Shown: positions 140 through 36,030 of the stretch, one piece after another
How the letters are laid out: every line of letters begins with the position of its first letter
Position numbering within the stretch: position 1 is the stretch's first letter
DNA from: Gymnopilus junonius
Taxonomy: Eukaryota > Basidiomycota > Agaricomycetes > Agaricales > Galerinaceae
Reading direction: 5' to 3'
Length of the DNA: 64,000 nucleotides
NCBI GenBank assembly: GCA_015501075.1
Contig: JADNYJ010000086.1
Span: 62,001-126,000 of the forward strand
Made by a program: the position numbers and the translations under genes
The notes under the pieces: model-generated
The model's input: only the letters and a program-made list of their open reading frames with translations
Told to the model about the DNA's origin: nothing
The model's database searches: none

Positions 140-1171
140 TTAGGCAATAATGCAAGATTCTTTTTTTGCCTTCGCCGGCGGAGGGGGAGAATCGACTTGA
201 CAGAAAAAAAATTAGCACGCAATCTAATAAATATCGCCATCAAGTTCAGTACTCACTGACAGCAAGCACAGCTTCCTGAAAAACATTATCCAGCCCTTGT
301 CGGGTGAAAGCAGAACATTCACAATATTTGGAAACACCGATGTCTTTCGACATCGCTATGCCTTGTGCGTAGCTAACTGGCGCCATTTGTCTGCGTTTCG
401 AAGATATCAAAAAAGGGCATTTGTGCTGCCTTCTTAAATTTCAGTCAACAGTATTCACCTGTCGGCCAATCTCTGGAGGGTCTCAGGGTTGTCACGTAGA
501 TCAAGCTTGGTGCCTACGAGCAGGATCTTTGCAGTCGACCGTCCGTGATGTATAACTTCGGGGTACCACTGTCAAATAGCATGAATTACCTGCGTGATAG
601 CATAATGGAAATTGACCTTTGTCCTAACGCTCTCGTAACTCTCCGGGTTCATAATAGAAAAACATAGGAGAAAAACATCTGTTTGCGGATAGCTTAAAGG
701 TCGAAGGCGATCGTATTCTGGCAGCCCAGGACAATGGAAAATTTCGAGGGTGACCGCAATATCGCTTATTGAACGCTCTACTGTATAGTGATCCCAAACT
801 GGGAAGCAAAATGTTCATTAGTTTTAAAAATAATTGAATAAGGTATGGATAGGATAGATGCTGACCATTGGGGAAATAGGCCGGTTGGAGAAAAGATTCG
901 ATTAGCTATTAAATCCCAAAGGTAGAACCAAACACTCGGCTTACTGGAAAATCGCCTCCATACCAATACGACAAGACGAGGCATTTCTGTAAAGGACGGA
1001 ATTAATGATGATCAGTGATTTGATAAATGCGTATGCTTGTTCACCTTGCCAACACAAGAGTCACCTACGATTGAAACTTTAACAAGAATCGTAAACGTGA
1101 AAGGTCAATAAGTTGCACGGATATGGGGAGGAGATGAGCAACTGACTTCGAATACTTCGTCGAGATCCCAT
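140..1171 (-). CDS. Rho-family small GTPase paralog 1, degenerate (pseudo-GTPase-like)
   Basis: Eight exons are read on the minus strand: 1156-1171, 1045-1076, 945-986, 866-905, 617-798, 459-568, 257-390 and 140-195 (612 nt, 203 aa). The frame is open throughout. Exon lengths 32, 42, 182, 110 and 134 equal those of the paralog at 15507. Rho landmarks are the P-loop [28 protein letters not shown], the G4 motif GTKLDL, the G5 region ECSAF and the C-terminal CAAX box CIIA, so a prenylated membrane-associated protein is expected. Key residues are lost: the Thr after the P-loop Lys is Lys, the Ras-G12 position is Ser, and DTAGQ has become HCPGL, removing the Mg-contacting Asp. The switch I exon is 40 nt rather than 19 nt, adding seven residues in frame. 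The 16-nt first exon is the least certain part. I infer a pseudo-GTPase that either does not hydrolyse or does not bind nucleotide normally. Confidence 0.75.
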
Positions 1172-1583
1172 GGATGTAGGCTGATGTACATACATGCGAG
1201 GTTTTTTAAAATCAAGAGGTTTTATTCTCCCAGTGGAACTCGACATGAGTAATTGTGAACAAATTACAGTCAAAAACTGACAGTATTCCACCTTGACAGC
1301 TTGCCCTTTTTTCCCGACAGGCTATGTCTTCGTTAAGCAGATGAAGAGTCTAAGAATAGTAAGAGGAAGTCGTGAATAAAAGCAAGATGACCGTGATGCA
1401 ACAGTTGTTTATCAGCGCCAGCGCCCGTCTCATTGAGTGGCATATGTCATTGTCATAGAAATTCAAAACTGCTGTTACATCGCATCCTGTTACTTCTCAT
1501 CCTATTACACGAATGAATACCTGGATTTGCTTTGGCTCTTGTTCTTTGTGAAGAGGTTATGTGACGACATTGCAATTGCACAT

Positions 1584-2630
1584 TCAAGCGACAATACATG
1601 ATGTCTGCGGTCCTTTGGAAGGCGGAGGCGGAGGAATAACTGATTTAAAAGCGTAAATGTAAGCATGCATTCCATCGCAACGGTCAAATCCAGAAAGAAA
1701 AGACTGACTGGCGACACGCATAGCTTCTTTAAATACATTGTTCACACCTTGGTGGGTGAAAGCTGAACATTCGCAATACTTGTGGGCACCAATGTCCCTG
1801 GCCATCGCATCGCCTTGAGAGAAACTTACGGGCGAAGTACGACTACGAAGAATAATTTCAGGCATCTATTATTTCCTGAGGAATAACACCCACCGATTGG
1901 CTAAGTCTTCGACGACTTTGGGATCTTCGCGCAAATCAAGCTTCGTTCCTACGAGTATAATTCCAGCAGATGATGGTGCGCAATACATCAGTTCCGGATG
2001 CCACTATCAGCTCGATTAAACCTGAGTGAGGATGCAGAAAATGAACCAGCACAGGCGACGAACATGAGTCCTAACATTCTCATAACTGTCTTGATCGATG
2101 AGGGAAAAGCATATACAAAAACATTTGTTTCCGGGTAGGCCAAGGGACGGAGGCGATGATATTCTGGTCGACCCGCCGTATCATAAAGGCTTAGGTTGAC
2201 AATGGCATTATCCACTGTACGGGGTGCCGTATAGTTGGTGAATACTAGAGTAGCCATGTCTCCAATCCAAAAGGCTGTAGGAAATGATCGCTCAGGCTTC
2301 TTACGTGGAAGCTTGTACGGAAGCTAAAACTTGTTTTAAATTTACGGAAACATCGAAGCGAAGGGCGCTCACGGGGAAAACTACATCTGACGTATACGAG
2401 GTGAGAAGGCAAGTCTAGAAAGAAAGAGTACCGCGAACGTCAGGACAGATCTATTAGCAGCGTGGTCAGGAAAGCGACGGTGAGGATATTTACCTTGCCC
2501 ACATCGGAGTCGCCCACAATCACCACTGAATATGGTCCCAGATTGTTGTTCAGTAAATCATATGTATAAATTAAATACACCGCTCACCTTTAACTGTCGG
2601 ATAGTTTCTGGTAGTACGAAATATGTGCAT
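1584..2630 (-). pseudogene. Rho-family small GTPase paralog 2, one-base frameshift
   Basis: Exons are 2588-2630, 2494-2525, 2373-2414, 2305-2323 (19-nt switch I micro-exon), 2064-2244, 1894-2003, 1709-1842 and 1584-1639. The protein has a P-loop GDSDVGKTC, G3 DTAGRPEY, G4 GTKLDLRE, ECSAFTHQG and a CAAX box CIVA. The 2064-2244 exon is 181 nt where paralogs 1 and 3 have 182. The frame breaks just after the block corresponding to TDVF, around 2105-2122, so the next conserved block ([14 protein letters not shown]) lies in another frame. All other exons and splice sites look sound. Gln63 (RhoA numbering) is Arg and the Gly12-equivalent is Ser, both predicted to impair GTP hydrolysis. A base-call or assembly error next to the run of five T is the alternative to true inactivation. 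Confidence 0.72.
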
Positions 2631-3654
2631 GTTGAAGTAAAGAGTACAGCCTGTGTGCCATCATCGTTATCACGAAATAAAGAAAGGGTAGATCTGACTC
2701 ACCCTGAGTATGTACTCGACGAAACGGCATGCTGTCGTTCAGTAACGATAAAAAAAGGCACCCAATGGTCATATCTCTAGGTCAGGAATGAGACGAACAG
2801 TCTGACAGGTGTCCTTTCCATCGTTAAAGTTATTACTCGAAGTATCAGAAAAACGACTCGGATAAGGAGATTGAGGCAAAAAAAAAAGAAATTAAAGCCT
2901 TGGACTGCCAATAGGATTCACAACTAGAAGGTAACAGAGCCCTCCAGTTTTAAACAGATACCATATAAAAATGCACTAGAGCCTGTGCAAATACCTAGAT
3001 TCCCTACGTATCATAGAACCCGAGCGTGCATATCCCTCAAATGTGTAAACAAACTCCAGCAGATGTTGGTATGGAAGTCGGTCAATGACGGCGAGGTAGG
3101 GACGATAGCATATCATAACTATATGACACATAACAAAAGGGGCCCCGAGGTGGAACCGGCGTATAACGATAGCGTTGCAGGTGGAGGAGGGAAATGAGGA
3201 GAGACACGACCATAAAAACTTGAAAGAAAACATTTGGAATCGGAAAGTATTTCAAGGGTTCTGTTCATATTTCTCGTCACATGATGTAGACGCGTCGCGT
3301 CGATTACCTTCAGCTTTCCACCCCACGCTCTCAACTCAAAGCCCAACCTTCAAGTTTGCTCCAAAGAGTGTTAAACCCGGCGACGCTTAAATCAGAGTCA
3401 TTGTTCTAATTTATTTAAATAATACAAAAAATATTCTACGTGAGATAAGATATATCGAGATGAAAATGCGACGTGTGTAGTAGTAAAATGTGAGCGGATT
3501 CCAGAATTGTAAAAGCATCAATGAGCATGCAAAACGAAAAAAAAAGCACCCTCCAAAACCAAAGACCAAAACAAAAACAAAACGAAAAAACTGAAGCAAT
3601 GTTTACCTCTCTCCTCCCTCCCCCTCCCTCCCAACATCAACACCCATCCTCAAC
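2631..3654. other. Intergenic, about 1 kb, with a promoter-like motif
   Basis: No gene is supported here. The stretch contains a composite ACGCGTC / TCATGTGA motif on the minus strand at about 3264-3303, oriented toward the Rho paralog 2 gene. Short A-rich runs adjoin the 3' end of the large minus-strand gene. Confidence 0.4.
3264..3303 (-). promoter_or_regulatory. Composite promoter-like motif (MCB-like box plus E-box)
   Basis: The minus strand reads ACGCGACGCGTC, then four bases, then TCATGTGACGAGAAATATG. The same pair of boxes occurs at about 13155, and the second half at 15276 and 38441. It lies about 640 bp upstream of the start of Rho paralog 2. The function is inferred only from recurrence and position. 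Confidence 0.45.
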
Positions 3655-6600
3655 TCACAAAAAGAAAAAAGAAAAGATCAGACCCAACTCAAAGTTTACT
3701 CGTCCCATATACCCCCCACCCCCACCCCCACCCCCAAACCCAAACCCAAACCCACCTCCGCCCACAAACGGCGCCAGCCGCGTAATCGGCTGCAACTTCC
3801 TCTTCAAATCCCTCAAAATTGACGTCTTGGGATGCCACTCCCTAAACGCATCTCTGAGCTCCGAGATCTCCCGGCCGAAGAAATGCGAGACGCGTTCGTC
3901 TGCGATGATGTCTCGGAGGGACCATGGGATCTGGGGTAAGATGCGGAGAGTCAGAAAAGGCTTGAAAAGAGAGAGGAGGCAGGGAGGCAGGGGAAGGGGG
4001 GAGACGGAATGTGATAAACGTACCTCGTAGTCATTCTGCTCCGAAGCAGCATTGAACGGCTCAAGTGTCAACTTGGCATTTTTCGTCATACCCTCATTCG
4101 TCAAGAAAAGGTACTTCACAGCCAACCTGTACGTCCAAAACAGCATTTCATCAGCCCACTGACATTACAAAAACAAAAAAAGTAAAAAAAGCAAAGAGAG
4201 GAAGGAAGAAAGAAAGAAAGTCAAGGTGAGAAAAAAAACTCACGAGTACGTCGCCACCTCCTCATACGCCGTCGAATGTCCAATCCCATTCAACGACCCC
4301 GCCGTCGCCTCTGACAAATGCGTGATCAGCCCCGAATCTGACATGCCCGAATTCAGTATCCTCAGGAGCAACACGAGGAGGTTGGAGAGGAAGTCCGAGG
4401 AGCTGCAGGTTAAGCAAGGAAGATTTATGCGTTATGATAAGTTGAGTGTCTTGAAGGCAAGAGGAAGAGGAAGAAGGAGATGAAAGACTTACTGATAAGC
4501 ATCGCCATCGATATACAGCGCTCTCAGAATGAGAGGATGCGAAACGGCGGTGAAGAGGCCTGAATAGATCGGCACGACTTGGTCGTTCAGGGAGGCGATG
4601 TACACGATCTTGATCTATACATGACAATGACAAAGTCAACACTAACATTCACACCCGCCACAACGACCAAAACAAAAGGCGCGACGTACCCCATGATCCA
4701 ACACGTTCCCTAGAGCCTTGACGTACGCCTTGGACACCGGGCTCTCCGTATTCTACAGATAAAAAAAGGATGTCAGGACCTGCGCAACAAACCCCAAGAC
4801 ACCAAAAACCGAACACCAAACACAAAAGGAAAAAAAGCAGAAAAAAAAACAAAAACAAAAACAAAAAACCCCACCTGGAACTCAAACAACTCCCTCGCAG
4901 CCGTATTCTCAAATACTGCAAATACGGTCCCACGAGCGTGCTCGACCTCAAATACCTCAACGGGCCGAGGTGGATCCCGCATTGCGCGAGACAGCACACG
5001 CGTTGGACTTTCCTCCTCCCCTGCCTCGTGGTGTTGTTGCAGATGTCTTGCGAGGGATCGGCGACATGTTCAGCCCCTGACACAGGACTAGCGAGACCGA
5101 TAGCGGACGGGAAGGCCTCTGCGCCCATCCCAAGAGGCAAAGGCAAAGGTTGCTCCGCAGCCTCACCCTCACTCTCACCTTCAGACGGCGATTCCGATGG
5201 AGTGGGAGACAAAGCGTCGCTAAGCTCTGTAACGATATGTCCGTCCGCAATGAGCCTATCCAAAAGATGGGTGGACACCACCGAGCCCTGGGAGTGCGTC
5301 GACACAAAGATGGCGTCGGCCAAGTGGAGGTCTGACATCCATTCGGGGTTGGCTTGCAGGTTGGCGTATAATCTATACGTGATGGAAGAGAAAAGAAAAG
5401 AAAAGAAAAGGTCGTCAGCATCTTGGATTGTGTTAGGACAGCGGATTGTGGTAGGACAGCTTGGATAAGGCAACTTGGATAGAGGAAAGAGGCATGCATA
5501 GAGATGAAGGAGGATGAAGGATGGAGGAAGAAGAAAGAAGAGATAAAACACACCTCTCAACGCGCTTCTCGATCGTCCCCTCACCCTCTAACGGGATCTT
5601 GGTGATCTTCTCAAACTTGACGCTGTACTCTCGCTCAAACTCCAATAGAGCTTGTTCGGTCATATTCGCGAATTTGGTGCTCGTTCCTGTGGGCTGTGAG
5701 GGACGGGAAGGGAAGTTAGTTAGTCAGGGGTATTGGAAGAGACAGAAAGAAAAGGAAGAGGAAGAGGAATAATGAAAAAAAAAACCAAAAACAACCCACC
5801 TCACCAACCATAGTCCTGATCATCGTCCCCGGGAACCATCCATGCACACCAATGACCACCACCCGCCGACATCCTCTCAGGATATCCTCCATCGCCCCTC
5901 CTTCATCCACACCTTCAGCACCACTTACTCCGCCAGCACTATTCTCACCAACCCCAACAGCACCCCCGACAGCAGCGTCACCCCTGTTAATGGCAGCCAC
6001 AGCGTCCTCAAGGACCTTCCAAGCCTTAGGCAGCTCCCTCCCAAACTCAATAAACCTTTCCCTCCGCTCTCTTTCGAGCATCGAGAGTCTACTAGATCCT
6101 TCCTCTGCTGCGCTGGCGGAAGTACTCAAGCTACTCGACCTAGCTCTCTGTTTGCCCTTCCCAGCAGCAGCGCCGGCACCGCCCAGCACAGACGCAGAGG
6201 ACGGCGACGGCGACGGCGAAGGAGCACCCGTACCCGCACCGCCCAACAGAACCCCACTCACAAACCTCATCGTCTTGCCAAACAACCCACCCTCCTCTTC
6301 TCGAGCTCGCTTGTGGCCTCTCTCTATTTCCTTCTCCTTCCCCACCCCAGCGCGCACCCGCTTCCTCTTCTCCTCCTCCTCCTCCTCCAAAACCGCCACA
6401 AGCGAAGGCGGAACGACACTCCTCGGCGGGGCATGGAACACGTGTTCCCATGTCGGGAGGACCCAATTGGGAGGAGGCGGCGCCGGGGCTGGGAGAGCTT
6501 TCTTCGATGAGGAAGATCCAACTCCGGATCCGGTGGTCGATGGGGCGGGCGAAGAGGTGCGAGAGGGATTGGGATTAATATTGGCGTCTTTGCTTGATGA

Positions 6601-9600
6601 CGACGTGGCACTGGCAATCGTAGTACTAGTAGTAGTCGCAGCACCACTTGTCATCTTGGTCGATACCGTGGTAGTCGTACTAGCCGCATTCACAGCTGTA
6701 GAAGAACCTACCGACGAACCAGGCGAGAACGTCGTCTCACCCGCACCCGGTGTATGTGTTGGCGTGTTCCCCATAGAAGGCACGGGAGTACCCGCCTCGA
6801 ACCCATCTTGGAAGTCGACCCAGACCCGAGGACCCTTGACAACCAGAGGCGCAGGCGACGCGCTCCTCCGCACGTCCGCTGAAATTCTCAGCTGAGGAGC
6901 CGGCTTCCCCATCGACAACGACGTCCTGTGCTTGACCGACTTGCTCGACTCGCCCGAGCTCGTCTCCTTGATCGACCCAGGCCTGGAGCCGGAGACTATG
7001 CTCCCTGCAGCTGCACGGGCACCCAACGCGATTTGTTTAGGCGAAGAAGGCATAGATGAAGGTGCAGATGCAGAAGAGGTAATGAGCGGTTTCGACGACG
7101 CAGGCATAACAGCCGCTAGGACCCTGCTAATCGTGCTCGCGTCGGATAATGAGCCTGTAGCTGGCTTGGCTAATGACTTTGCATTTGCATTTGCATTGGT
7201 ATTGGTATTGGCACTGGCGTGATCTTGATCTTGGGCTGTGATCCCACTGCGACTCCCGACGTCTTTTGTATCCTCCATTCTGCCCCTGGAACTCTCTTCC
7301 ACCGACACAGGCGCAGGCGCAAGCGCACTCATACCACCACTACCACCTCCCAACTCCTTCCTCAACTCAACCTCCGCCTCCCCATCCTCATCCAAATCCA
7401 AATCAAGCTCCATAACTTCCATCCCATTCTCATCTCGCTTGACATCCTCCTCCTCTCCTTCAGCCTCACTTCCTCTCCCACCGCCTTGCTCAACAACTCC
7501 TTTACTTTCCGCGCCCCCATACCCATACCCGAGAGATTTAACGATCAACCCTCGAGAAGTAGAACTGAAAAAGGACGCCCAGCCTGCTCGGTTGGTATTC
7601 CCGCTAAGCGTTGAAAGGATCGGGTTGGGAATTGAGGTGTCTTCAGAGTCGACTTTGACTGCATGTTCTTCTTCTTGTTCTTCTTGTCCTTGTTCTTGTC
7701 CCGTCGTCTCGCTTTGGGTTTGGGTTTGGGTTTGGACGACCTCCAGCGCAGGCGCTCCTTTTTGTCCTTCAGGACTCTCCTGGGCCGGAGCCTCACCCTC
7801 ACCCTCCGCCTCACCCTCGCCAACAGCTTCATGCCCACTCTGCGCCTCGACTTCAATCTGCGATTGTAATCGAGGCAGAATCTGACCATCCCCCTCTTGA
7901 TCCCATGCGCAGTCGACGCCGTCGTCGAAGTAGAGGTTGAAGTATACCACCAAGAAGATAACCAACTCGCATTAGTCGCTGCTTGTCCTGGTGCTGTAGC
8001 CGTAGCCGTAGCCGTAGCCGTAGCCGTCGTAGGCTCCATTGCGGAAGCTGAGCCAAGGGTAAAACCTGCAGTTGCGGTTGCGGTTGCGGTCGTGGTTGTG
8101 GGTGCGGTTACAGTTGCACCACCCTCCTCGCCCGCCATCTCCTTCTCCTTCACGTCCACCGCCTTCCGTTCCAAAGCCGACGTAGCCAACTGCGTCTGTG
8201 CTTGCGTCTGCGTCTGCGTCTGTGCCTGTGCCTGTGCCTGCGTCTGCGTCTGTGTCCTGTGCCTGTGTCTCTGTCTCTGTCTGGGGCTCTTGCGAACCGG
8301 CACCAGCACCAGCACCAGCATCATCGACTCTCGTCCCCTCTTCTGGGACCTCAACCCCCGATTGACTTGAAGCACCCTCACCCTTAACACGAGACGCTCC
8401 TCGACCCGCGACTTCCTCCCCCTCCCCCTCCTCCTCCTCCTCTTTGCCACTAGTAACAGTGATAAAAGCGGGCGTCGATGCTGGTGTCTTTGCAGCTGCC
8501 GACGCCGACGCCGACCAGCCCATGTATTCCCACCAAGTCAAAGTCGAAGTCAAAGTCGAAGTCGAAATCGAAGTTGTAGTCTTCTCATCCTGCAGCTCTT
8601 GCCTCTGCTGCTTCTCCTGCTGCTGGTGCTGCTTTCGCTCCGCCGAACCCCCGTCCTCGTCCTTGCCCTTGCCTCTATCCTTATCCTTAACCCCACCCTC
8701 CAACGCAGATCCACCCAAAAGACGATCAACACTCTGGACAGCAGCAGAAGCAGCCACAGCAGCCGTCCTCGTCCTCGTCGTTGCTAATGACGATGACGAT
8801 AATGAGACATCAGGTGCGCACTGCCGCGCTAACGCTGACGCTGACGCCGGTGCAGGCACACACGATGTGAAATTTGGAGTTGACGATGAGGATGTATGGT
8901 CTGGGGTATCCAACACTGCAGGTCCTGAGGTGGTGGTGGTGGTGGAGGAGGATGAGGGGGGTGCCGGTTCTTCAGCGGAGGTCGCGGTCGTAATAGTATT
9001 AGTATTAGTAGTGGTAGTGGTGGTAGTGGTAATTTGTGCACTAGAGGAGAAATCGGAGGAGGAGGAGGAGGTCGTGGGATATCCCGAGCCTTGGTCCTGA
9101 CTCTGTCTTTGAATTGGACTTTGAGGTTTCGGTTTCGGTTTCGGTTGAGAGGCACCTAACACCCAATGGGAAAAAGGTGGAAAAAGATGGAAAAAGATGG
9201 AAAAAGATGGAAAAAAGGGGGAAAAAGGAAAAAAAAAAAAGATCAGCAAAGAACCCAAATCAAACACCCAACCCTTAACAAATCTCTCACCTTTCCCGTT
9301 CTCTTTCTCCAACACCACACTCCCCAGCGACGAAGCCTTTGCCCTCCCCATCCCCAACAAAGGGATACTCAGCATGAACCGACTTGCTGTCGAGTTTAAC
9401 GCGCCTGTCGTAGGCGTCGCTTTCGTCGTAGGCGTTGAAGTAGAAGTGGATGTGGGCGCGGTCGTGGAACCACCGCCTGAAAATCCAGACCGAACCTTGT
9501 GCGCGTGCGGTGTAGGGGATGGAGGTGGTAGCGAGGGCACTTTATCGTCTATTGAGCTAGAGGATGGGAGGGAGGCGGTGTACTGGTGTTCTTGTTCGCG

Positions 9601-11506
9601 CTGGTGCTCGTGCTCATGTTGATTCTGCTCATGTTGATTCTGACGCCGCTCCTGCTGCACTGACCCCGAAGACGATTCCGAATACAAACCTAATCCTGGT
9701 TCCGCATCAGCTACAGACACGGATGAACGCTGCAGCTCCCGTCCTGAGTGCACCAACGGCACGTCCACGTCCGTCTCCGTCGACGTAGACCTCGAGAGGC
9801 CCACTACAGCAGGATATTCAGGCGGCGGGGTTCTGGGAATGTTGATCTCAGTCTCGATTTCTCTGCCCATCGCACCCACCGCGTGCACAGCACCCACAGC
9901 ACCCACCGCATGCACAGCGCTAACAGCACCCACGCCCCTCATAGACGGCGAAGCAAGAGGAGGAGGTGTAGGCGGAGCAGCGAACCACGATCGTTTAGTG
10001 CTCGGTCTACGCTGTTTCCCATTTACATTTGTATTTACATTTGGATTTGAGGAAGAGAAGGGTGAGGGCGTAGCTGGTGCCGAGCGCGATTGTGTCGCAG
10101 TTGCAGTTGCAGTTGCAGAGGAAGAAGAAGAAGCGAGAGGGGTACCACGCGATGGTGATGGTGATACTGATACTGAGGAAGAAGAGGTGGTGGTGGGTTT
10201 GATAGGACCCGGAGCGTATACCTTTGCCTTGGATAACACTTGAGGAGACCGCGAGGAGGAGGATGTGGATGTGGATGAGAATATGAATTGAGGTGGTGGT
10301 GAAGAAGGAATGATAACAGCGTTAGCAATATCACTACCACTAGTAGGAGGACCATTCATGGCAGTGGCACTAGCTGAGTTTGTAGTTGCAGAAGCAGAAG
10401 CAGAAGTAGAAGTAGAAGCAGTAGGACCAGGACCAGGACCAGGGGCGGGCCAACCACCTTGATCTTGACTTTGACTTTGAGTGTGACCTTGAGATCGAAT
10501 GCCCGCACTAGCAGGCGTCGGCGGCTCTATCTGCACCTCAGGCACAAGCATAGGCATGGGCATAGGCGTGGGTTGAGGTACGGGCATACGCGAAGCCGCA
10601 GGCGAGATGCGCAGCGGCGGGGCCCTATCTGAGTTCGACTCTGCTAAAGGTCCGAATGACAATAATGACGTCGGCCCATTCGAATGACCATTGTCAACTA
10701 GCCCTGGACTTGAATCCGACTCGTCCACTTCCGTTACTTCAAGTGGTACGCTGAGCTCGCGCATCTTGCGTTTGCCTTTGTCTTTGCCGTTCCCGTTCCC
10801 AACTGACATCGAGCTAGAGCGTGAGGGAGGGGTGTGCCGCTCTAGGTTTGCCACTATAATTACGATAATGACAATGAAAGAGTCAGAAACACATGCATCA
10901 CTGACAGGAAGGAAGGGAAGCACACATACCATAGCCACGTTCATTACTGGTATTGCTCTGATTGGCACCACTAGCAAGAGCACCAACTCGATCAGAAGCA
11001 GGCCTCTTCACAGGCGACGTAGATGTAGATGTAGAACCTTCCGCCTCCGCTCCTAATCCAGACGCAGAGCCCGACCCACTCCCACTAGCGCCACCCACCC
11101 ACCCACTCATACTCCTCAGCCCTCTCACACCCGCATCCGATAACAGCTCAGGCTCGGCATACACCACGCTCACACTCGCACTCGCCACGGCACCCGCGCC
11201 GCTCTTGCTTAAGAGCGTCTTCGACGGGGATCGCCATGGTCTTTGACCTCCTCCCGACCCTGATCCAGAGCCCGAGCCAGAGCGTGACCCAGGGACTTGT
11301 AAGCTGCGCACTGAGCGGTGGGTGGTACTATGTGTCGAGGAGCGTCTGCTTCTTGTTATTGGTACTGGTACTGGTACGTGGAAGGGCAATGTCCCTGGAA
11401 CCGGTACAGGACCTGGTATAGGTATGGGTGTTAACACACGAACTTGATCTCCATCTTCATCTTTATTCTGTGTGTGTTCATCGCTTGCAGTCGTAGCGCT
11501 GGGCAT
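3655..11506 (-). CDS. Very large alpha/beta-hydrolase-like protein with repetitive N-terminus (frame damaged)
   Basis: Ten exons are supported by splice sites: 10930-11506, 9291-10853, 5800-9155, 5554-5693, 4875-5372, 4690-4752, 4493-4614, 4244-4402, 4024-4126 and 3655-3930, about 2,285 codons. The first 1,700 or so residues are low-complexity Ser/Thr/Ala/Pro/Gln tracts broken by aromatic islands such as WWEYMGW, SSWWY and GWASFF. The C-terminal third looks enzymatic: HGWFPGT (possible oxyanion region), THSQGS (GxSxG-type nucleophile elbow), LNDQVVP and DGDAYHSSDF. The C-terminus is glycine-rich. I know of similar conserved fungal proteins but not their substrate. Two problems are seen. Exon 5 lacks one A near 4913, so LQY..ENTAAREL is out of frame, while the copy at 14090 has the expected length. 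At 7972 the main frame meets TAA, while a second frame looks coding from about 8200 to 7900. Either two compensating indels or unrecognised introns could explain this. Confidence 0.65.
7990..8030. repeat. CCGTAG hexamer microsatellite in coding region
   Basis: There are about six tandem copies of a GTAGCC-type hexamer. On the minus strand the frame that looks coding gives Thr-Ala repeats and the other gives Gly-Tyr repeats. The tract sits inside the interval where the large gene appears to change frame, so length variation here is a plausible cause. Confidence 0.7.
8190..8285. repeat. Hexamer minisatellite (TGCGTC / TGTGCC) in coding region
   Basis: The tandem degenerate hexamers encode Gln-Thr/Gln-Ala repeats in one minus-strand frame and Asp-Ala/Gly-Thr repeats in another. 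The apparent switch between reading frames of the large gene falls at or just after this tract. Confidence 0.7.
9165..9240. repeat. GGAAAAAGAT tandem repeat inside an intron
   Basis: Four to five copies of a 10-bp unit form a polypyrimidine tract on the transcribed strand, near the 3' end of the 135-nt intron between exons 2 and 3 of the large hydrolase-like gene. Confidence 0.7.
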
Positions 11507-13419: not shown

Positions 13420-15013
13420 GAAGGTTTTCCCTCTTCGGACTCCTGCTGGTAGCGGCGGAGTGGGTGCTGCTGGAGATGAACTTGAAGGTGCTCAGGAAAG
13501 AGGGCCGATGGAGGATGTCTTGAGAGGGTGTCGATAGGTGGTGGCCATTGATGCATTGGTGTGCATGGGTGGTTTCCGGGACGATGATTAGGATTATGGT
13601 GGGTTGTTTTCGCTTTCTTTCTCTATTTTCTTTCTATTTCTCTGCTCTGCTTCTTCTTCCTCTTTTCCTCTCTTTCTCAACCTCTTCTTCCGATACACAC
13701 GCCCTCAACTAACTCCCATCCCATCCCCCCTCCACTTGGCAGACTCTATCTTTGCGTCGACGCACTCCCAGGGCTCGGTGGTGTCCACCTATCTTTTGGA
13801 TAGGCTCATCGCGAACGGGCATATTGTTATTGGGCGCACCCACACTGACGTCCATGAGGACATGGGCGTGGTTGTGCAGCTACCGCTGGGGATGGGCGCA
13901 GAGGCCTTGCCGTCCGCTATTGGTCTTGGAAATACCAGCCTAGGAGAAGGAGATGAACATGTCCCCGAGTCCACACAAGCCATCTCCAGCTCTGACCCCA
14001 GCAACCTCAAGACGAATAGGAAAAGGAGGAGGAAAATCCAACGCGTGTGCTGGCCCGCGCAATACGGGGTCCAGCTAGGTCTGTTGAGGTATTTGCGGTA
14101 TTTTCAGAATACGGCTGCGAGGGAGTCGTGCCGATCTATTAAGGCTTGTTCACCGCCGTCTCTCACCCTCTCGTCCTCCGAGCGCTGTATATCGATAGCG
14201 ATGCGTATCAGTACGTTGTTCTCTCTCCCTCTTACCTGCAAAAATTCTCAACTCATCATAATGAATGTCATTTACTTTGAAGCTCCTCCCACTTTCTCTC
14301 CAACCTCCTCCTGTTGCTCCTGAGGATATTGAATTCGGGCATGTCAGATTCGGGGCTGATCACGCATTTGTCAGAGGCGACGGCGGGGTCGTTGAATGGA
14401 ATTGGACATTCGACGGCGTATGAGAAGGTAGCGACGTATTCGCGAGTTTTTTTCTCTCTTTCTCTCTTTGTTTTTTTTACCGTTTTTTGTAATGCCAGTG
14501 GGCTGATGAAATGCTGTTTTGGACGTACAGGTTGGCTGTGAAGTACCTTTTCTTGACGAATGAGGGTATGACGAAAAATGCCAAGTTGGCACTGGAGCCG
14601 TTCAATGCTGCTTCGGAGCAGAACGACTACGAGGGTATGTTTCTTTTTCCTCCCTATTTCCCCCTCACTCCGTCCTTCCGTCTCTCTCTCTCTTTAAAAT
14701 TTGCACCCTTTCTAATCCCCACATCTCGCCCTAGATCCCATGGTCCCTCCGAGACATCATTGCAGACGAACGCATCTCGCATTTCTTCGGCCGGGACATT
14801 TCGGAGCTCAGAGATGCGTTTATGGAGTGGCATCCCAAGACGTCGATTTTGAGGGATTTGAAGAAGAAGTTGCAGCCAATTACGAGGCTGGCGCCGTTTG
14901 TGAGTGGAGGTGGGAGTGGGAGTGGGTTTAGTGGTGGAGGGGGGGTGGGGGGTATACGGGGACGAGTAAGCTTTGAGTTGGGTTTGCTTTTTTCTTTTTC
15001 TTTCGTGAATTGA
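13420..15013 (+). pseudogene. Truncated, rearranged copy of the hydrolase-like gene
   Basis: This plus-strand copy begins within the region equivalent to ...MEDILRGCRR and ends with the same glycine-rich tail as the gene at 3655, stopping at 15011-15013. The long N-terminus is absent. TAG stops occur at 13535 and 13589, and a 7-nt insertion precedes the HGWFPG-equivalent. The counterpart of exon 4 is missing. The nucleophile segment STHSQGS at about 13758-13778 is kept. Near 14126 the exon 5 sequence runs straight into exon 7, deleting exon 6 and two introns. Later exons retain recognisable splice sites and near-identical coding sequence (LNSGMSDSGLITHLSEATAG is identical), which points to a recent duplication. 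Expression as a working enzyme is unlikely. Confidence 0.8.
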
Positions 15014-15273
15014 GGATGGGGTGTTGGTGTTGAGAAGACGGAGAGGAAGGGCATCGCTTCAATCTTTCTTTTTTTCTTTTTTTAGTCTTTGGTTTTCGAG
15101 GTCAGTGGTAAACGAGTTGGCCAGCTGGGCAGAAATTCATAGGTGTTTTATCTAGGTTTACTTCCTCTTGAGTCCTTGAATTGCACTAAATTTGTATTGT
15201 CAAAATCAGGGCTTTCAGGTTAATCCTAAGCTGACAAATCAACCTTATTCTTGAGAGGTACGCGAAGTGTCTG

Positions 15274-15293
15274 AATCATGTGATGAGAAAGTT
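15274..15293 (+). promoter_or_regulatory. TCATGTGATGAGAAA element upstream of Rho paralog 3
   Basis: GAATCATGTGATGAGAAAGTTG lies about 230 bp upstream of the proposed start codon of the Rho gene at 15507. It repeats the second half of the composite motif seen at 3264 and 13153. Confidence 0.4.
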
Positions 15294-15506: not shown

Positions 15507-16540
15507 ATGCACGTACTGCGCAGCAGTAAAATTGTTAAACGTTAGTGGTGCTTTTTTTCTGCCTGAGTCTACTGAACAACATTTTGGAGCGTTTTCAGTC
15601 GTAGTTGTAGGCGATACTGGTGTGGGCAAGGTAAATATTGTCGCCCTTTTTGTCACCACGGCTGTTGTAGGTGAGTTCTGACGTCTTCATTTTTCTTCAT
15701 TTCAGACGTGCCTTTTCACTTCGTATACGACCACGGCGGTTTTTCCGGTGAGCGTCATTTGAATGAAAGTTTTCTTGACCACTTATGTGAATAACTCTTA
15801 GCTGCACTACGTGCCTTCAAGTAAGAAGCTTGACCGACTTTTTCCTCCGACGTCATAAAGTGATTGCAGAGCTATACTCTAGTATTCGACGGCTATGCCG
15901 CGCACCACACAGTGGATGGAGAGACTGTCCTTCTAGGCTTATTTGATACAACCGGACAGTCAGACTATGATCGTCTTCGTCCCTTAAGTTACCCTCAAAC
16001 AGACATCTTTCTACTATGTTTCTCCCTCGTCGATCCCGATAGTTATGAAAATGTTAGGACAAAGGTGTGTCACATATGTCTATACTGTATTCTCATTCTC
16101 AAGCACAATTTACTTAATAGTGGCATCCGGAACTAATACACTATGGACCGACATCTGCTAGAATTGTGCTCGTAGGAATGAAGCTTGATCTATGGGCTGA
16201 TCCTCAGGTGGTCGATATGTTGGCTAATCGGTGAGCGCTATATTAGATACTCTTCATAAAATGTTGAATATCCGAGGCTGTTTTCTTAGTCATTCTTTGC
16301 CCATAACTTACTCTCAAGGTGCCGCGATGGCCAGAGGCATCGGTGCCGATAAGTATTGTGAATGTTCTTCATTCACCCGCCAGGGTGTGATCAATATTTT
16401 TGAAGAAGCCATGCGCGCTGCCAGTGAGCCTTTTTAGTTTCGGTCGTGGGCTTAGTTTACAGCGCTCACGGTATTGTCCATAATCAGTCTGCCCAAGTTC
16501 TCCATCAAAAGTACCGAAATCATCGTGTATTATTGTCTGA
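15507..16540 (+). CDS. Rho-family small GTPase paralog 3 (predicted low GTP hydrolysis)
   Basis: Exons are 15507-15540, 15599-15630, 15706-15747, 15802-15820, 15883-16064, 16121-16230, 16290-16423 and 16488-16540 (606 nt, 201 aa), all with GT..AG introns and no frame breaks. The start [12 protein letters not shown] leads directly into beta-1 and the P-loop GDTGVGKTC. The 19-nt exon 15802-15820 encodes LHYVPS of switch I. G3 is DTTGQSDY, G4 is MKLD, G5 lies in ECSSFT and the CAAX box is CIIV. The Ras-G12 position is Thr and Ala59 is Thr, while the catalytic Gln is kept. In Ras such changes slow hydrolysis, so I infer a mostly GTP-bound protein. The switch I Thr is Ser. It is the best preserved relative of the two minus-strand copies at the left end. 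Confidence 0.82.
15802..15820 (+). other. 19-nt micro-exon encoding switch I
   Basis: It is flanked by AG (15800-15801) and GTAAGA. It supplies LHYVPS plus the first base of the next codon, and its inclusion is needed to align FP..YVPSIFDGY with the Rho family. Equal 19-nt exons occur at 2305-2323 and 35307-35325. Confidence 0.75.
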
Positions 16541-25248: not shown

Positions 25249-26306
25249 ATGAAGGCCTCAGCTCACTCTATTATCTTTGCTACCGTCCTCGTCATTGGCG
25301 TCAAAGGAGCGCTGATCCCCAGAGTGTACGTATATTTTTTAAGAGCAGATAACCATCTAGAAACTGATATACTTTCGTCATGACAGTCAGTCCAGTTCCG
25401 TTCAATCGTTCACTTCCATCCCTAGCGCCAGTGCCTCCTCTGCCTCGGCGTCCTTCAGCAACATAGCCAGTGCCTCTGTCGCCTCCGCATCCTTCAGCAG
25501 CGTGGCTAGTGCATCCGTCATTTCTGCATCTTTCAGCAGCGTAACCAGTCCCACCGCCGTTTCCGCCTCCTTCATCAGCGTATCCAGCGCAATTTCCAGT
25601 TCATTTTTCGCATCCTCAGCACCGTTTGCCACTGGTTCAGCCGCTGCTTCCTGCATCGTCAGCGCATCAGGGGTACCATACTCAGCTTCGGACTTTGGAT
25701 CTACTGGAAGTGGCACCATCCTTCCATCTAGTGCCGCAACTGCTAGTGTCGTAGGAACAGTTGCAACTTCATCTGCCCCCTTCGTCACTGGCTCAGCCAT
25801 AGCTTCCTCCGCCCCTTTTGCTACCGGATCCAATGAAACTTCATCTGCACCTTTCGCCACCGGAACGTTCGTTGGTCCCTCCCCCTCTTTTGCTACAGGC
25901 TCGTTTATTCCATCCAGCGTCCTTCCAAGTGGTTGTTTCGCGACAGGAACAGAGGTCGAACCTTCTTTCGCAACTGGCACCGTCGTCGCTTCAAGCTTTG
26001 TTCCCGGGAGTGTATCTCCGTCTGGCAGTATCGTCAGTTCCTTCCGGCGTCCCCAGTGTCTCAATCGACCATTCGAGTGCTGTTCCGAGTGGTAGCTTCG
26101 CGACAGGTACCATTGAAGCGTCGTGCTTTATTCCAGGTAGCGCTTCTGCAACCGGATCGGTCATCAGTTCATTCCCATCGTTCGTCAGCCAGCCAGCCAT
26201 ATCGTCCAGCTTCTTTTCTGGCAGTAATTTCGCTACTGGAACCATTATCGCCTCGTCTGCTGCTCTGGCTAGTGGCACTGCCGTCGCCTCCAGCTCCTCG
26301 ATTTAG
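25249..26306 (+). CDS. Secreted Ser/Ala-rich mucin-like repeat protein (apparent frameshift)
   Basis: Exon 1, 25249-25325, encodes a signal peptide (MKASAHSIIFATVLVIGVKG). A 61-nt intron leads to exon 2 at 25387. The mature protein is almost entirely Ser, Ala, Val, Thr and Phe, with repeated SxAPFATGS and PSxFATGT units and earlier SASFSSVASAS units. It is a probable O-glycosylated wall or surface protein, with no catalytic motif. The first frame ends at 26095 after an uncharacteristic FRRPQCLNRPFECC. The repeat continues in the +1 frame from about 26035 (VSSVPSGVPSV..., PSGSFATGT) to the stop at 26304-26306. A single missing base near 26030 would join them. A 32-nt intron would also do so but is too short to be likely. 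Confidence 0.65.
25770..25985 (+). repeat. Degenerate tandem coding repeat (APFATGS unit)
   Basis: About six units of 36-51 bp encode SSAPFATGS or PSFATGT, with third-position variation. This is the core repeat of the mucin-like protein. Confidence 0.65.
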
Positions 26307-28606: not shown

Positions 28607-29230
28607 AAGTTTATCCAGACTCGAGTTTGATTGTATCATAGTTATTTCTCCCTTTGGGCTGCTGGTTGCTCGCTCATCCCTGTATATTATGCATTTCTTC
28701 TTCTGGTGGGTACTTACCATTGGCTCTCTGGTCAGCGTGTCGTAATATATCTGTATAACTATTTATGTTTCCTTCTTATTTTGTACTTTCTCTTTGCATG
28801 TAACATGTAGCTGTATCGATAATATCAATAATAGTAGTTGATCTACTGATTAACTAGCAAGATGGAGATCTGGCCCGACTTCATTGACGGCACCTTGGCA
28901 TATTTACTGCAGTCATGCCTCCCGGAAAAATAGTTGAGAAACAATGGTAATAAGGTGGTAAAAGATGACTGCGTTTACCACCTTCACTGTCCCCGAAACC
29001 TCTTCAAAATTGAGATGGAGCTTTCCATGAACGACGTCGCCCACCGTCACGCAATGATATAATTCTGATCATGGTCCCTAATTGTCAGAAGAAGACTTCA
29101 TTCAAATGTTGTGATTAGGTGTTTTACACTTCCAAGTTTGAAGGCCAACGTCAACGATTTAGATCCCATCATGCACTTCTACAGATGAAATCCAATATCG
29201 ATTAAATACAGTAAGATTCATGACTACCAA
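28607..29230. other. Intergenic between convergent genes
   Basis: The stretch lies between the 3' ends of the DUF6593-like gene and the minus-strand kinase-like gene. No gene or RNA was recognised. Confidence 0.4.
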
Positions 29231-30360
29231 TCAAAGCCGCGATTTTGCCCATGACGCCATACGCTCGAAACCAGGGTCCTCATTTGTATCAGAGAACCAG
29301 GCCACTATAGCTCTCAGATCACGCCCTTCCGTGAGGCACTTGTAGAAATTAGGGTTGCGTTCTCGGACCATCTACGGGATGAGAAATTAGTAATCGTGCA
29401 TGCAGTCTGTCAGCAACACACCTCCTCAAACTGTGAACGAAGTCTTCGTCTCTCAGTTGGGCTTTCGTCCCACCAGTAGTTTCGAAAAGCGAAATCAGGA
29501 TCATTGGGGCCTTCATCTGATAGCCATGCTGGGTAGTCAGCACAGAGGATAGCCGGTTGGATGTAATTAATCTCCCAGTCTAAGACTGCTGTTATCGTCC
29601 CATGATCGTCCACAAGAATGTTGTAATTATGTAAATCGGCATGAGTTAACACACATTGCAGGAGAAGAGGGTCATTGATACCCCTTAAGAGAGACAAAGC
29701 TTTGGACTCAATCGCAGACAGAACCTGCTTAGCGCGCTCTTGATCGTCAGGTTTCATCTCCTCGACAGTTTGGCGTTTTACAACGACAAGGAAGTTAAAG
29801 AGTTCAAAAACATCGTCAAATGTATTAGGACTGGAACAGGATGCCCGGGGAGCGATGCGTGGGCCCACTGAAAGAATGCTAGAACCTTCAACCGCGTTAG
29901 TTGATACTGAGCCGATACGCTGGGGCGTAGAAAAGCGAAAAAGTTCCAAGACAATATCGACATAAGCGGACATGAAGTTTTCCTGGAATACTAAGAGGTC
30001 GGTAGAATATCACCCCGAATTATCAAATTCTGACCTTTGCATTTTTAGACCAAGAATGCCATAGCAGAGCAACAGTCGATCCTGGCATTTTTTCCTCGAT
30101 AAAGAAATCTGAGCCAACTTCCAATACCTTAGGAACCGGGATCGTACTGTTGACGTAAAGCCAGCGAAGTAGTTGGATCTCACTTTGAAATTTAGTGGTA
30201 CTCCATGTCTCGAAAATAGGGTCGAAGGCGTATCTGTGCCGTTGACGAACGATCACTGATCTACCATCATCCAAAGTAACGTCCAGGGTCTGTAAGGTGG
30301 GAAATACTGTAGGAAATAGGGACTAAAGATTGAAAAGGCGAGAAGACCTACAGTGTTCAT
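29231..30360 (-). CDS. APH-fold phosphotransferase (aminoglycoside phosphotransferase/choline kinase-like)
   Basis: Four exons: 30352-30360, 30035-30289, 29422-29982 and 29231-29371 (966 nt, 321 aa). It has the APH layout: beta-strand VTLDDGRSVIVRQ with the N-lobe, EIQLLRWLYVNSTIPVPKVL, the E-rich hinge FIEEKMPGS, the catalytic loop HADLHNYNILV (Asp and Asn of HxDxxxxN) and the metal-binding Asp in VLDWEINYIQP. It is likely an ATP-dependent small-molecule kinase. Fungal members are numerous and mostly unassigned, so the name says nothing about antibiotic resistance here. The 9-nt first coding exon is chosen because only this ATG gives a continuous frame into the N-lobe. A longer upstream start in the 30380-30508 region does not splice in frame. 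Confidence 0.8.
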
Positions 30361-31182
30361 GTCCATGGCTCGGCAGCTTGTATGAATAATTCCAGCTTTC
30401 AGAATATTTTGACATTATCGTGGAATCTTGACGATCAGATGAGTCTCTTCTCCTAGGGACCATTCCTGAAACATGAGGGATAAGATTCAAGTTGACTGAC
30501 ATCTCCAAGGCGATTCCAATATGGAAGGAGCATCACTAGAAAGGTGAGGAAAAGATGAGACAAGTGAGAAGCGAGTGAGCGGAAATCTTCCGTCTGCAAT
30601 CGTTGAAGGCTGAAATAGCAATTTGATCTCCGCCCCAAAGCACACGCCTGGGCAGCTGCGGTACGCAGCCTGAGAACGGTTTCACACCACAACTTATGAA
30701 ATATCTACAACGTCAGGCTATGTAACCTGAATCAATTTATATGGTGCTCAACATTAAGTTTGAGAGCAAGAAGTGGTGCAAATTTTTGACGCCTCCTGAT
30801 CCTGCAAGTTGGTAACTACGTCAGAATGCTTAATTATCGCCTTCGCAAATGCGGCTCGATTTAATTGGAGATTGCAGATGCATGCATACGAAAATACGAC
30901 AACGATCATATTATTTATAGAAAATACTACTGTACGGCTACCGTCAACGAAGAAAGTTTAGACAAAAGAAAAAAGTGGGAACGGAGGTGTCAGCCAGAAT
31001 TAACCTGGAGCAGTTATGTAGGTATCGTAATTTAATTCAAGTGGAAGCAGAGTCCATAAAACAAAACAAAAAATCAGTGAGTAGAAGAGCTACCGGGACA
31101 ACGAATGTGTTAAATGAGCGCATAATTAGTCAAAGTACAGTTAAGATGTAGCACGTCACCCTCAATTACCGCATTTCCTGAT
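30361..31182. other. Intergenic, no gene
   Basis: The stretch lies between the start of the kinase-like gene and the 3' end of the F-box gene. No coding signal or repeat was identified. Confidence 0.4.
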
Positions 31183-32811: not shown

Positions 32812-34618
32812 GATTAGGCGTCTCTGAAAGGCTCTAGTTCAAGTTCGGCGTTATGACAGCAGTCCACGACTCACCTCAGTACCTAAAGAAAGTTTCCAGA
32901 TTTAAAAAAAAAGTAACAATAATAGCAAGAAGAGGGAACTGTAGAAAAGATCGTTGGGGTGTAGAGTTTAGGATACGGACATGGAATGAGTCTTGGTGAA
33001 GTCCTCGGTTGGAATTGGGTTTGGGTTCAACGTTCAACATTGGATGTCAAAAATAAATCGAATGTCAGCGGCGCGGGAAAATATTTCCATAAACAAGTTT
33101 ACCCTGCCAGCAACAAAGAGCAGCCGACTCGGCTCTGCGACTCTTCCGGAGACACTGATTCTCAACCGCACCAGTCGTCCAGTGGATGGACTTGGGACTC
33201 ATGTACTCATGCTGGAGATTTGACGACCTGAATTGAAAAAAACCAGGCCCTGCTTTCCGACTAGTTTCACAGTCGACGAGAAGGCCAACCGTCATTGACC
33301 GGGGTCACTGAACGCTTTTTGAAATCGCCCCCGTTCTTGTCCTTGGACCAATCTGTCGGTAGTGGCGTGAAATTGGATGGCCTACACCTGCCATCCGAAC
33401 AGCTGTTTCACTTTGCAGTTCAGGCTTCAAATCGCTGCAGCAGATCCGGACAACTTCAATTGTCAATTGGAATGTAGGATCTACTCAACTGAAGAAGCAG
33501 GATCGTGAGTTCGTGGTGCGTTATTGTCCTTGTCAATGGCATGCTAGCTCTTAGACTGACGAGCCCTTGTTTAGAGCTTAGAGCCTGTTGTTTTTTTTTG
33601 TCGTCAAATCCTCAATAGCCCCACAAGCGTGAACTCGACAGGGTGGTAGGAGCAGTACGTTTGGTATTTCCAAATCCTTCCCCAGCTGGTTTAGCAGTAT
33701 TTGCTACTCTTCCCCGACGCTGGGCTTCAGTCTGCCACCGTCACGCCATCGACCCAATTGTTTGTCTGTATATCTATTCGACCTTTCACATGGACGGAGC
33801 ATATCAACTCATTAGCCAATTTGCCTAGCGTGTCATTATCGCCTCGAATTGTTTTGCTAAACGGGTTGGAAGATCCTTGCCTTGGTGTGACGATGACTGC
33901 CATGGCTTACTGTGTTGCCATTGAAACCGCCAGATTCTGAGGCCCGAGCCTCGCCTTTCAGTCTCTCCTCAATTGCACGAGAATGGATAGCAGCGAAGAA
34001 AGGCGTCAATATCCTGGGTCAAGTCTTCTAGCGTCAAAGTACTGTAAGCACCTTCCTTTCTCTGATCGTCATCCAAGTTTTATTAACGACTTCTTAGGTC
34101 TTCCTCATGGAGTATAAGAGGCCCTCAACTTAGATCTGCTTCCCGAAACGTACGTTGTCGGATCGTATTGGGAATGAACTCTCGACCCTCGTTTGGCTCG
34201 GGTTGTCTACTGTGGGGAGAGCAGGTACCCACCGCGGCGGTCGCATCTGCGAGGTGTTCAGAATCTTCACTGCTAGGGTCTGAGGTCCGGAGTCCGATGG
34301 CGTGTGCCATTCCGAGAGTATATGGCTATGGCCCTCGTGAGTTCGTCCCAGGCGAAATTGGGAGACATTTCCTCACTCGTCTTGCTTTTAGGACCTGTCA
34401 ATCGTGATCACGTGACGTCTTGTCTTTGTGACGACTGTTGAGTGGCAGTTTTCATTTTCCAGACTGTAGATCCACCCTTTTTGATCTATTTTTTTGGTCT
34501 TTGAGACTGTAGGAATGCTCTTGGTGTCTTGGGCATTCTTGCCTTCTGTTTCTCTTGCCTTTTCTTGCAGAAAGCCGTAATTTACCGGATGGTGAACGGC
34601 GGAAGGTGCAGAGTCTAT
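32812..34618. other. Intergenic, 1.8 kb, no supported gene
   Basis: Small frames exist but show no splice logic or recognised motif. A GTGATCACGTGACGTC element at about 34403-34418 lies 630 bp upstream of Rho paralog 4 and resembles the E-box half of the composite motif. Confidence 0.4.
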
Positions 34619-34745
34619 AAAATAAAAGACCGTGTATTGTAGTTTAGTCATAAATTAGGCACCATTAAAATTATTATCTCGAGAACACATAAGTCGTAAT
34701 GAAAGGTTGGGCATCGTTTGAGAGGGGATTGACTTGAGATTAGAT
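34619..34745 (+). repeat. Left copy of direct repeat, with orphan Rho CAAX exon
   Basis: The block AAAAGACCGTGTATTGTAGTTTAG encodes the end of a Rho protein (KRPCIVV, stop at 34645-34647). It continues through ATTATCTCGAGAACACATA into a region also present after Rho paralog 4 at 36003-36115. No upstream Rho exons are present, so this is the 3' scar of a lost fifth copy. Confidence 0.7.
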
Positions 34746-35051
34746 ACCTTCCCATCAGCGGCTGTGCACGTTCTGTGTGCCAGCGCGTCCTGCATTCACA
34801 TCATCATGATCATTCCAAGCTTGGCTCCTGCCGCCGCGTGCTTGCTAGACTGAGCACCTGCTCGACGCGACCCTGAGCTCCAGCTTCCCAAGTTCGACGC
34901 AGATTGGCCTGCCCCACCGTGGAATGAGTCTTAATGAGTCACGCCACGATGATCCATGACAGCTTGTCATGACTTTTAAGAAGGTACCGTGGAACATGGC
35001 TTGCTTTCTACTATAACCTAATTAGAACTCCTCCTCCATTTTTCAAAAATT

Positions 35052-36030
35052 ATGCGTATGCCGGTACTCAAAAGTTTGTTTCTAGTGTCAATTACTCTAT
35101 CTCTTTTTATTGATGGTTTATAGTCGTAGCTGTCGGCGACAGTGGGGTCGGCAAGGCATGCCCTCATTCTATGATGGATACAAGTAATTAATCCCTTCCA
35201 ATATTCAGACCTGCCTGTATATATCCTATACGACGCGTTCATTCCCGGTACGTTGTGCTGCTTGCATCAATCCAGGCTTGACTGACTTAAACTGTTTGGA
35301 AAAAAGACTGCCTATATCCCAACAGGTATTGTTCTTAGGCCGACAATTCTCGATCCGATCATAACCCATTGGTGATAACAACCTTCCAGTATTCGATGGG
35401 TATGTAGCCGAACATGAAGTCAATGGAGTTACGATGCCCGTTGGATTATGGGACACAATAGGATCAGACGATTATGGCATAACTCGCATTCGTCCGTTGA
35501 ACTATATCCAAGCCGATGTGTTTCTCCTCTGCTTCTCTCTCGTCGACCCGAATAGCTTTGACAACGTTCTGAAGAAGGCACGTCGTACTCTCATATGCTA
35601 TATAGCTCTGAGATGACATATTTTCTTTCAGTGGGCTCCCGAGCTCCAGCACCACGCTCCACCAGACGCTCAAATTGTGCTTGTTGGCACCAAGGTTGAC
35701 TTGCGCAATGAAATACAAGCCTCAGAAAACTCCATAGGCCAGTAAGTCAAACCAACCGACTTATTCTCCATCTCATGACGAACCTACAAAGCTCTAGTCC
35801 CCGTACATGGATTGATTACCAGGAAGGTCTCTTCATGAGGCAGAATATCAACGCTGCCGCCTACTGCGAATGTTCAGCACTTACGCTGGAAGGTGTTGAT
35901 AACGTCTTTCAGCAGGCCATGAAGTGTGCAGGTAAGTGATGTAGACCATCATGACTGATGTATAATCGACCAACAACAAGTTCAACCTTCTCGCACGAAG
36001 AAAAAGAAAAGGTCGTGTATTGTAGTTTAG
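35052..36030 (+). CDS. Rho-family small GTPase paralog 4 (Rnd-like G3 motif)
   Basis: Exons are 35052-35073, 35124-35155, 35209-35247, 35307-35325, 35390-35577, 35632-35741, 35798-35931 and 35981-36030 (594 nt, 197 aa). It starts [20 protein letters not shown]. Switch I (TAYIPTVFDGY) is intact, including the effector Thr. G3 is DTIGSDDYG instead of DTAGQEDYD, followed by a two-residue insertion. G4 is GTKVDL and G5 lies in ECSALT. The polybasic tail TKKKKRS ends in the CAAX box CIVV. Ser at the Ras-G12 position and Ser at Gln61 are the substitutions found in vertebrate Rnd proteins, so constitutive GTP binding is inferred. Two introns, after 35155 and 35577, begin with GC rather than GT. It is the most Rho-like of the four apart from its G3. 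Confidence 0.82.
35307..35325 (+). other. 19-nt micro-exon encoding switch I
   Basis: ACTGCCTATATCCCAACAG sits between AAAAAG and GTATTG, and encodes TAYIPT plus the first base of Val. It has the same length and phase as the exons at 2305-2323 and 15802-15820. Confidence 0.75.

Follow-up and report, generated by a model that had tools for sequence, protein, structure and literature searches.

A cluster of Rac genes and its second haplotype

We analysed a 64,000-nucleotide stretch of the Gymnopilus junonius genome (C845:62001-126000 in contig JADNYJ010000086.1, hereafter the window), which carries a cluster of four genes for Rho-family GTPases, g1 to g4. All genome comparisons were made within a single assembly (58 Mb, 898 contigs), whole-genome match counts are lower bounds, and residues are numbered as in human Rac1. 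Gene models were built by spliced alignment of the window, each giving a coding span followed by a stop codon. On the minus strand, g1 occupies 143..1171, with its stop codon at 142-140, and encodes 203 amino acids in eight exons (1171-1156, 1076-1045, 986-945, 905-866, 798-617, 568-459, 390-257 and 195-143); g2, also on the minus strand (1587..2630; eight exons), encodes 205 amino acids where it is in frame, on the other haplotype. The two remaining genes lie on the plus strand and also have eight exons: g3 (15507..16537; 196 amino acids), whose frame is intact in both haplotypes, and g4 (35052..36027; 197 amino acids), in frame with usable splice sites, two of its introns being of the GC-AG type. 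An earlier note, made from the sequence of the window, had placed four Rho paralogs with shared introns here, and the spliced models with their stop codons end where it had put them; all four genes have 7 introns in the same phases (1,0,0,1,0,2,1).

Reading P-loop, switch I, G3 and CAAX box in turn, g1 has GDSCVGKK, YFPN, HCPGL and CIIA; g2 has GDSDVGKT (GDSGVGKT on the other haplotype), YKLPLF, DTAGR and CIVA; and g3 has GDTGVGKT, YVPSIFDGY, DTTGQ and CIIV. In g4, GDSGVGKT, YIPTVFDGY and DTIGS are accompanied by a two-residue insertion in switch II and by a C-terminus with polybasic KKKKRS and the CAAX box CIVV. The four CAAX boxes had been named correctly beforehand. All four proteins match the Pfam Ras family (E-values 2e-29 to 4e-39; g2 was represented by its in-frame protein from C141), and Rac1 is the best PDB match of g3 (2.8e-68) and g4 (7.3e-60), a similarity well beyond chance. 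The Rac-subfamily features CAAX, TKxD and SA are present, with g3 deviating at two of the motifs (MKLD, ECSS).

Contig C141 (57 kb) is the second haplotype of the left part of the window, with collinear blocks 89-99% identical, and ends at the place of window position 26093, before that of g4. It carries second copies of g1, g2 and g3, together with two degraded Rac-derived copies upstream, A and B, both of which also lie just left of the window (C845:57281-58359; L031). Copy A is represented by a C-terminal part only; copy B has GDQGVGKT and FETPGH, and no C-terminal end was modelled for it. A further Rac-derived locus exists in two copies that are 94.8% identical (L063, C679:20.1-21.3 kb; L064, C185:30.3-31.6 kb), which differ at position 12 (Ser, TCT, versus Ala, GCT) and in which DTSS replaces DTAG.

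The cluster derives from Rac1 of the same genome

To place the copies we used a tree of 15 rows that included human Rac1, Cdc42 and Rho1 and left out Rnd sequences. In it, g1 to g4, B and the C679 copy form one clade (97/99), in keeping with the local paralog group without Gly12 that the earlier note had proposed, and this clade is sister to the genome's own Rac1 (98/96); Cdc42, Rho1 and human Rac1 fall outside. The order within the clade is not resolved, apart from a weak grouping of g2 with g3 (84/93). Because the tree groups the copies with the genome's own Rac1, we consider the cluster a Rac1 expansion. The own Rac1 (C112:123 kb), to which the four proteins are 53-59% identical, shares all 7 introns with their phases, as well as a CAAX box, whereas the genome's models of Cdc42, Rho1 and three further Rho genes (most of them without a first exon) have different intron sets. 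Taken together, these results show that g1 to g4 derive from the Rac1 of the same genome. A shared ancestry with animal Rnd proteins is not borne out, in a tree that left out Rnd sequences: the clade is sister to the own Rac1, human Rac1 falls outside it, and every Rac1 intron is shared.

Every copy that retains position 12 has lost Gly12

The own Rac1 has the canonical GDGAVGKT and DTAGQ, neither of which occurs in any of the four window genes. As the earlier note had claimed, the residue equivalent to Ras Gly12 is replaced throughout by Ser or Thr (S, S, T and S in g1 to g4); it is Gln in B and Ser or Ala in the C679 and C185 copies, so that no copy in which the region is present shows Gly. 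Codons at this position are AGT in g4, TCT or TCC in g1, g2 and C679, and ACT in g3, against GGC in Rac1, and since the Ser and Thr codons differ among copies, position 12 has changed more than once. At position 13, Gly is found in g3, g4, B, C679 and in-frame g2, whereas the window copy of g2 has Asp and g1 has Cys.

Position 59 is P, A, T/A and I in g1 to g4, and position 61 is L, R, Q and S, Gln61 thus being lost in three of the four. The altered G3 motifs described previously are present in the window, but the change in g3 is allelic: T59 (DTTGQ) is found in the window and Ala (DTAGQ) on the other haplotype, where g3 is the one gene of g1 to g3 with DTAGQ. The P-loop GDSGVGKT of g4 and in-frame g2 is identical to that of a Rab7-like gene of the same genome (L006), which has a normal DTAGQ. 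A Rab-type sequence or C-terminus is nonetheless absent from g1 to g4, which are Rac-type in sequence, Rho-like around switch II and end in a CAAX box.

We then scored 11 positions of our own choosing that contact nucleotide or Mg, calculating P against background identity (0.50 for g4). All 11 are kept in g4 (P 4.6e-4), yet this protein carries A59I and Q61S; g2 keeps 10 (T35P; P 0.005) and B keeps 9 (P 0.02). Only in g4 are a residue other than Gly at position 12, loss of Gln61 and intact nucleotide and Mg contacts combined.

The family is relaxed relative to Rac1, yet not neutral

Codon models were fitted to Rac1, g1, g4, g2 and the two g3 alleles (194 codons) on three topologies. The ratio of nonsynonymous to synonymous rates (ω, or dN/dS) was about 0.25 in the clade, as compared to 0.04 in Rac1, and equal ω was rejected (p about 1e-5). 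A clade ω of 1 was likewise rejected, with twice the log-likelihood difference (2ΔlnL) at 127-128 on the three topologies, and the branches leading to g4 (ω 0.16-0.17; p 1.1e-6 to 1.3e-4 versus ω = 1) and g1 (ω 0.17-0.18; p 1.1e-5 to 5.6e-5) were each constrained. Because clade ω exceeds that of Rac1 and neutrality is rejected, the family is relaxed relative to Rac1 yet not neutral. The earlier note had named neutral dN/dS in all copies as a result that would undo its reading; this does not hold, because the group evolves under purifying selection.

Differences between alleles point the same way. Single-step counting gave nonsynonymous to synonymous ratios of 2:3 for g1, 5:7 for g2 and 5:4 for g3; pooled (12:14), these correspond to an ω of about 0.35, with a one-sided p of 0.0013 to 0.013 for kappa values of 1 to 8 (0.007 at kappa 4), against an intron divergence between alleles of 38 in 1291 sites. 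Nei-Gojobori counts are consistent (g3 4:5, p 0.04; g2 5:7, p 0.01). Between g2 and g3, the three codon positions are 76, 81 and 58% identical and the seven introns 52-66%.

Some copies are interrupted on one haplotype

In the window, g2 carries a 1-base deletion near 2115 that breaks its frame, whilst the C141 copy is in frame. This deletion may be a sequencing error, because the sole Cdc42 seen in the assembly (L018, C32:66 kb) also shows two apparent single-base indels. Conversely, g1 is interrupted on C141 by a 749-bp insertion resembling a long terminal repeat (LTR; C141:19128-19876, L034:9128-9876), located in exon 6 at the place of window 563-566 and bordered by a 4-bp repeat. The element has at least 43 matches in the genome (40 of 62 candidates scored), 25 of them full-length including itself, and among the matches listed there are six same-strand pairs lying 7.8-9.2 kb apart on one contig. 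The insertion fits a solo LTR.

Proposed function of the cluster

We interpret the cluster as a Rac1-derived family of atypical Rac GTPases that evolves fast but is selectively maintained, and that comprises two working classes; we assign this interpretation a probability of about 0.5. An ancestral copy would have arisen by duplication of Rac1 in full, all 7 introns included, and the P-loop of this copy would then have moved from GDGAVGKT to the Rab-type GD(S/T)GVGKT (Gly12 to Ser or Thr, Ala13 to Gly) before the copies split. In the first class, g4 and g3, which keep F37, D38, Y40 and the CAAX box, would retain Mg-GTP binding, membrane attachment and effector contact, and the side chain at position 12 would make them poorly sensitive to Rho GTPase-activating proteins (GAPs).

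Within this class, g4 makes a good candidate hydrolysis-dead Rac of the RhoH or Rnd kind: S12, I59, S61 and the switch II insertion are predicted to remove hydrolysis, whilst the anchor, the effector residues and the contacts that we checked are kept. If g4 indeed hardly hydrolyses GTP, expression and turnover would determine its output, in the manner of RhoH and Rnd. The second member, g3, is a good candidate for a GAP-resistant Rac, since T12 combined with Q61 could yield a slow, RhoGAP-resistant enzyme, although Rab-like cycling is equally possible. The second class (g1, g2, B and the C679 and C185 copies) has Mg and switch residues replaced; its members could do no more than act as decoys that bind the partners of Rac1 without switching, perhaps competing with Rac1, or are being lost. 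Having lost T17, T35 and D57 in g1 and carrying T35P in g2, these two are not plausible as stably GTP-bound proteins, and we regard it as unlikely that they are canonical GTP-locked switches.

A more far-reaching version of this proposal, which we put forward tentatively, is that a Rac1 copy independently evolved the chemistry of RhoH and Rnd, that the clade fixed a residue other than Gly at position 12, and that selection may have kept GAP-blind Racs (g4, g3) together with decoys whose nucleotide site is broken (g1, g2) and which tune signalling by Rac1, the two haplotypes carrying different working sets. Should g4 and g3 prove GAP-insensitive, fungi would have evolved, apart from animals, an atypical Rho control by protein level as opposed to a GAP-driven cycle. 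By pairing copies of the g4 and g3 type with copies whose nucleotide site is replaced, on two haplotypes, the family also provides a natural test set for the residues that a Rac needs.

Several observations weigh against a maintained family with two working classes. Whole-genome searches of the assembly found g4 as a single copy, and both g1 and g2 are damaged on one of the two haplotypes. Retention of the nucleotide and Mg residues is not clearly above background in g3 (9 of 11; T35S, A159S; P 0.08), g1 (8 of 11; T17K, T35N, D57H; P 0.12) or C679 (8 of 11; P 0.06). The g2 branch alone (ω 0.42) did not reject ω = 1 (p 0.09). Under a free-ratio model, tests of individual branches gave weaker results (2ΔlnL 2.8 to 10.2), and an ω of about 1.6 was estimated for one short inner branch on either topology. 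The long Rac1 branch (3.6 changes per codon) makes all ω values rough, and GAP resistance is uncertain because Ser12 is usual in Rabs, where proteins that carry it are ordinary switches.

In an alternative reading, the cluster is the debris of birth and death: tandem Rac1 copies decaying slowly under relaxed selection and with no distinct function, their motif losses reflecting erosion. A clade ω some six times as high as the Rac1 value (0.25 versus 0.04, p about 1e-5), the interruption of g1 on one haplotype and the frameshift of g2 on the other, the fragmentary or degraded state of A and B, and the loss of T17, T35 and D57 in g1 would all be expected of such copies, and Laccaria is reported to have undergone an expansion accompanied by pseudogenes (available text of PMC8146680). 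However, the data reject neutrality in the clade as a whole, on the branches to g4 and g1 and in the pooled alleles. The frame of g3 is open on either haplotype, and that of g4 is likewise intact, with splice sites that can be used, a polybasic tail and a CAAX box. We judge slow decay, although a serious contender, to be on balance unlikely.

It is also conceivable, if rather improbable, that the copies have Rab-style switches, in which GDSGVGKT fits normal cycling, and that the copy with Q61, g3, hydrolyses GTP, perhaps with other GAPs or altered exchange, as an ordinary signalling paralog of Rac1. The P-loop is the same as in the genome's Rab7-like protein with its DTAGQ, A13G accompanies the change of Gly12 to Ser or Thr, and g3 keeps Q61. 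In Rabs, Ser at this place is in contact with the nucleotide, and its replacement by Val lowers exchange and does not lock the protein with GTP (available text of PMC4531439). The surroundings of switch II are nevertheless Rho-like, not Rab-like, Q61 is absent from g4, g2 and g1, and replacement of Gly12 is said to inactivate Rho GTPases enzymatically, RhoH and RhoE having Ser there (available text of PMC2565660). Since the change here reproduces a Rab P-loop, loss of GTPase activity should not be read from G12S in sequence alone.

Finally, the earlier note had taken all four proteins to be GTPase-deficient, constitutively GTP-bound and Rnd-like, and although Gly12 is absent from all four, Q61 from three of four, and the clade is under purifying selection, we consider this very improbable given the descent of the clade from Rac1, its Rab-type P-loop, the Q61 kept in g3 (with DTAGQ on one haplotype), the absence of T17, T35 and D57 from g1 and T35P in g2, which leave it a good hypothesis for g4 only.

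Relation to known atypical GTPases

Compared with the own Rac1, with which they have in common intron number, intron phases and the presence of a CAAX box, the copies of our proposed family differ in S/T12, in an altered G3 (in g3 on one haplotype only) and in ω; the group consists of atypical Rac paralogs, an unusual but recognisable kind of switch protein. Rnd proteins have Ser at positions 59 and 61, whereas in the cluster Ser61 occurs in g4 only and Ser59 in none. In RhoH, Ser replaces Gly12 and Asn replaces Gln61; the protein binds GTP without hydrolysing it and is reported to inhibit other Rho GTPases (available text of PMC2565660). By this description, g4 resembles RhoH in Ser12 and in lacking Gln61, which has become Ser in g4; RhoH also has a motif like an immunoreceptor tyrosine-based activation motif (same source). 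Both Rnd proteins and RhoH lack Gly at this place, and the output of RhoH is largely set by its level, as far as the available text of PMC13236570 goes.

Among Rnd1-3/RhoE, Ser stands at the Gly12 place in RhoE (available text of PMC2565660), whereas here Ser is found in three of four copies and Thr in g3. Rnd is moreover an animal subfamily (available text of PMC7600811) and was compared with our cluster by description, whereas the cluster comes from a fungal Rac1; g3 keeps Q61, and g1 and g2 lose Mg or switch residues. With Rab GTPases (the Rab7-like L006; yeast Sec4), g4 and in-frame g2 share GDSGVGKT, of which g1 and g3 have variants, whilst the remainder of g1 to g4 is Rac, with CAAX and a Rho-type switch II, and the Rab7-like gene keeps DTAGQ. 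Ser at this place is well conserved in Rabs, with a role different from that of Gly12 in Ras (available text of PMC4531439).

The earlier note knew of no such expansion in basidiomycetes. Rho expansion as such is not new, because expanded Ras and Rho GTPases with gain and loss of motifs and with pseudogenes were already reported for Laccaria bicolor (Rajashekar et al. 2009, as cited in the available text of PMC8146680), for which 21 Rho proteins are listed in a table of PMC5037802 (seen in part). The two cases are alike in being lineage-specific expansions with motif gain and loss and pseudogenes in a basidiomycete. They differ in that five of the seven Laccaria Rho proteins analysed are Rho1 (PMC8146680, same portion), whereas the source here is Rac1, with G1 altered in all copies in which it is present. 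In a set of 111 fungal Rho proteins, G1 to G3 are described as perfectly conserved in most (same portion). The available part of a Lentinula edodes survey describes no tandem small-GTPase arrays (PMC13101504), and a literature search at the level of titles and the starts of abstracts, with subscription papers mostly outside it, found no report of Rac copies or a Rac clade without Gly12 in fungi.

Surroundings of the cluster

A scan with g3 found no relative in viral contigs. The genes g2 and g3 lie inside an inverted segmental duplication, of which the arm next to g2 (3550..4579, minus strand) is 81% identical to the matching arm next to g3 (14124..15101, plus strand), this flanking stretch being more conserved than the genes themselves (69%). 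Within it, exon-like blocks are near-identical and intron-like blocks have diverged; a 92-residue peptide from the duplicated stretch has no Pfam match. Between g2 and g3, two open reading frames (ORFs) of 749 amino acids (5716-7965) and 1004 amino acids (7972-10986), both on the minus strand, are likewise without a Pfam match.

Pfam scans took in 20 of the 35 window ORFs of at least 150 amino acids, and none of those scanned is a neighbour that would account for the Rac cluster. Two matches lay above the cut-off, an APH (phosphotransferase) match at 29410-29973 on the minus strand and an F-box-like match at 60642-62276 on the plus strand, and two weak ones lay below. Upstream of g4, a repeat of ~180 bp (window 34737-34927) has at least 42 further matches across the genome, at 68-93% identity.

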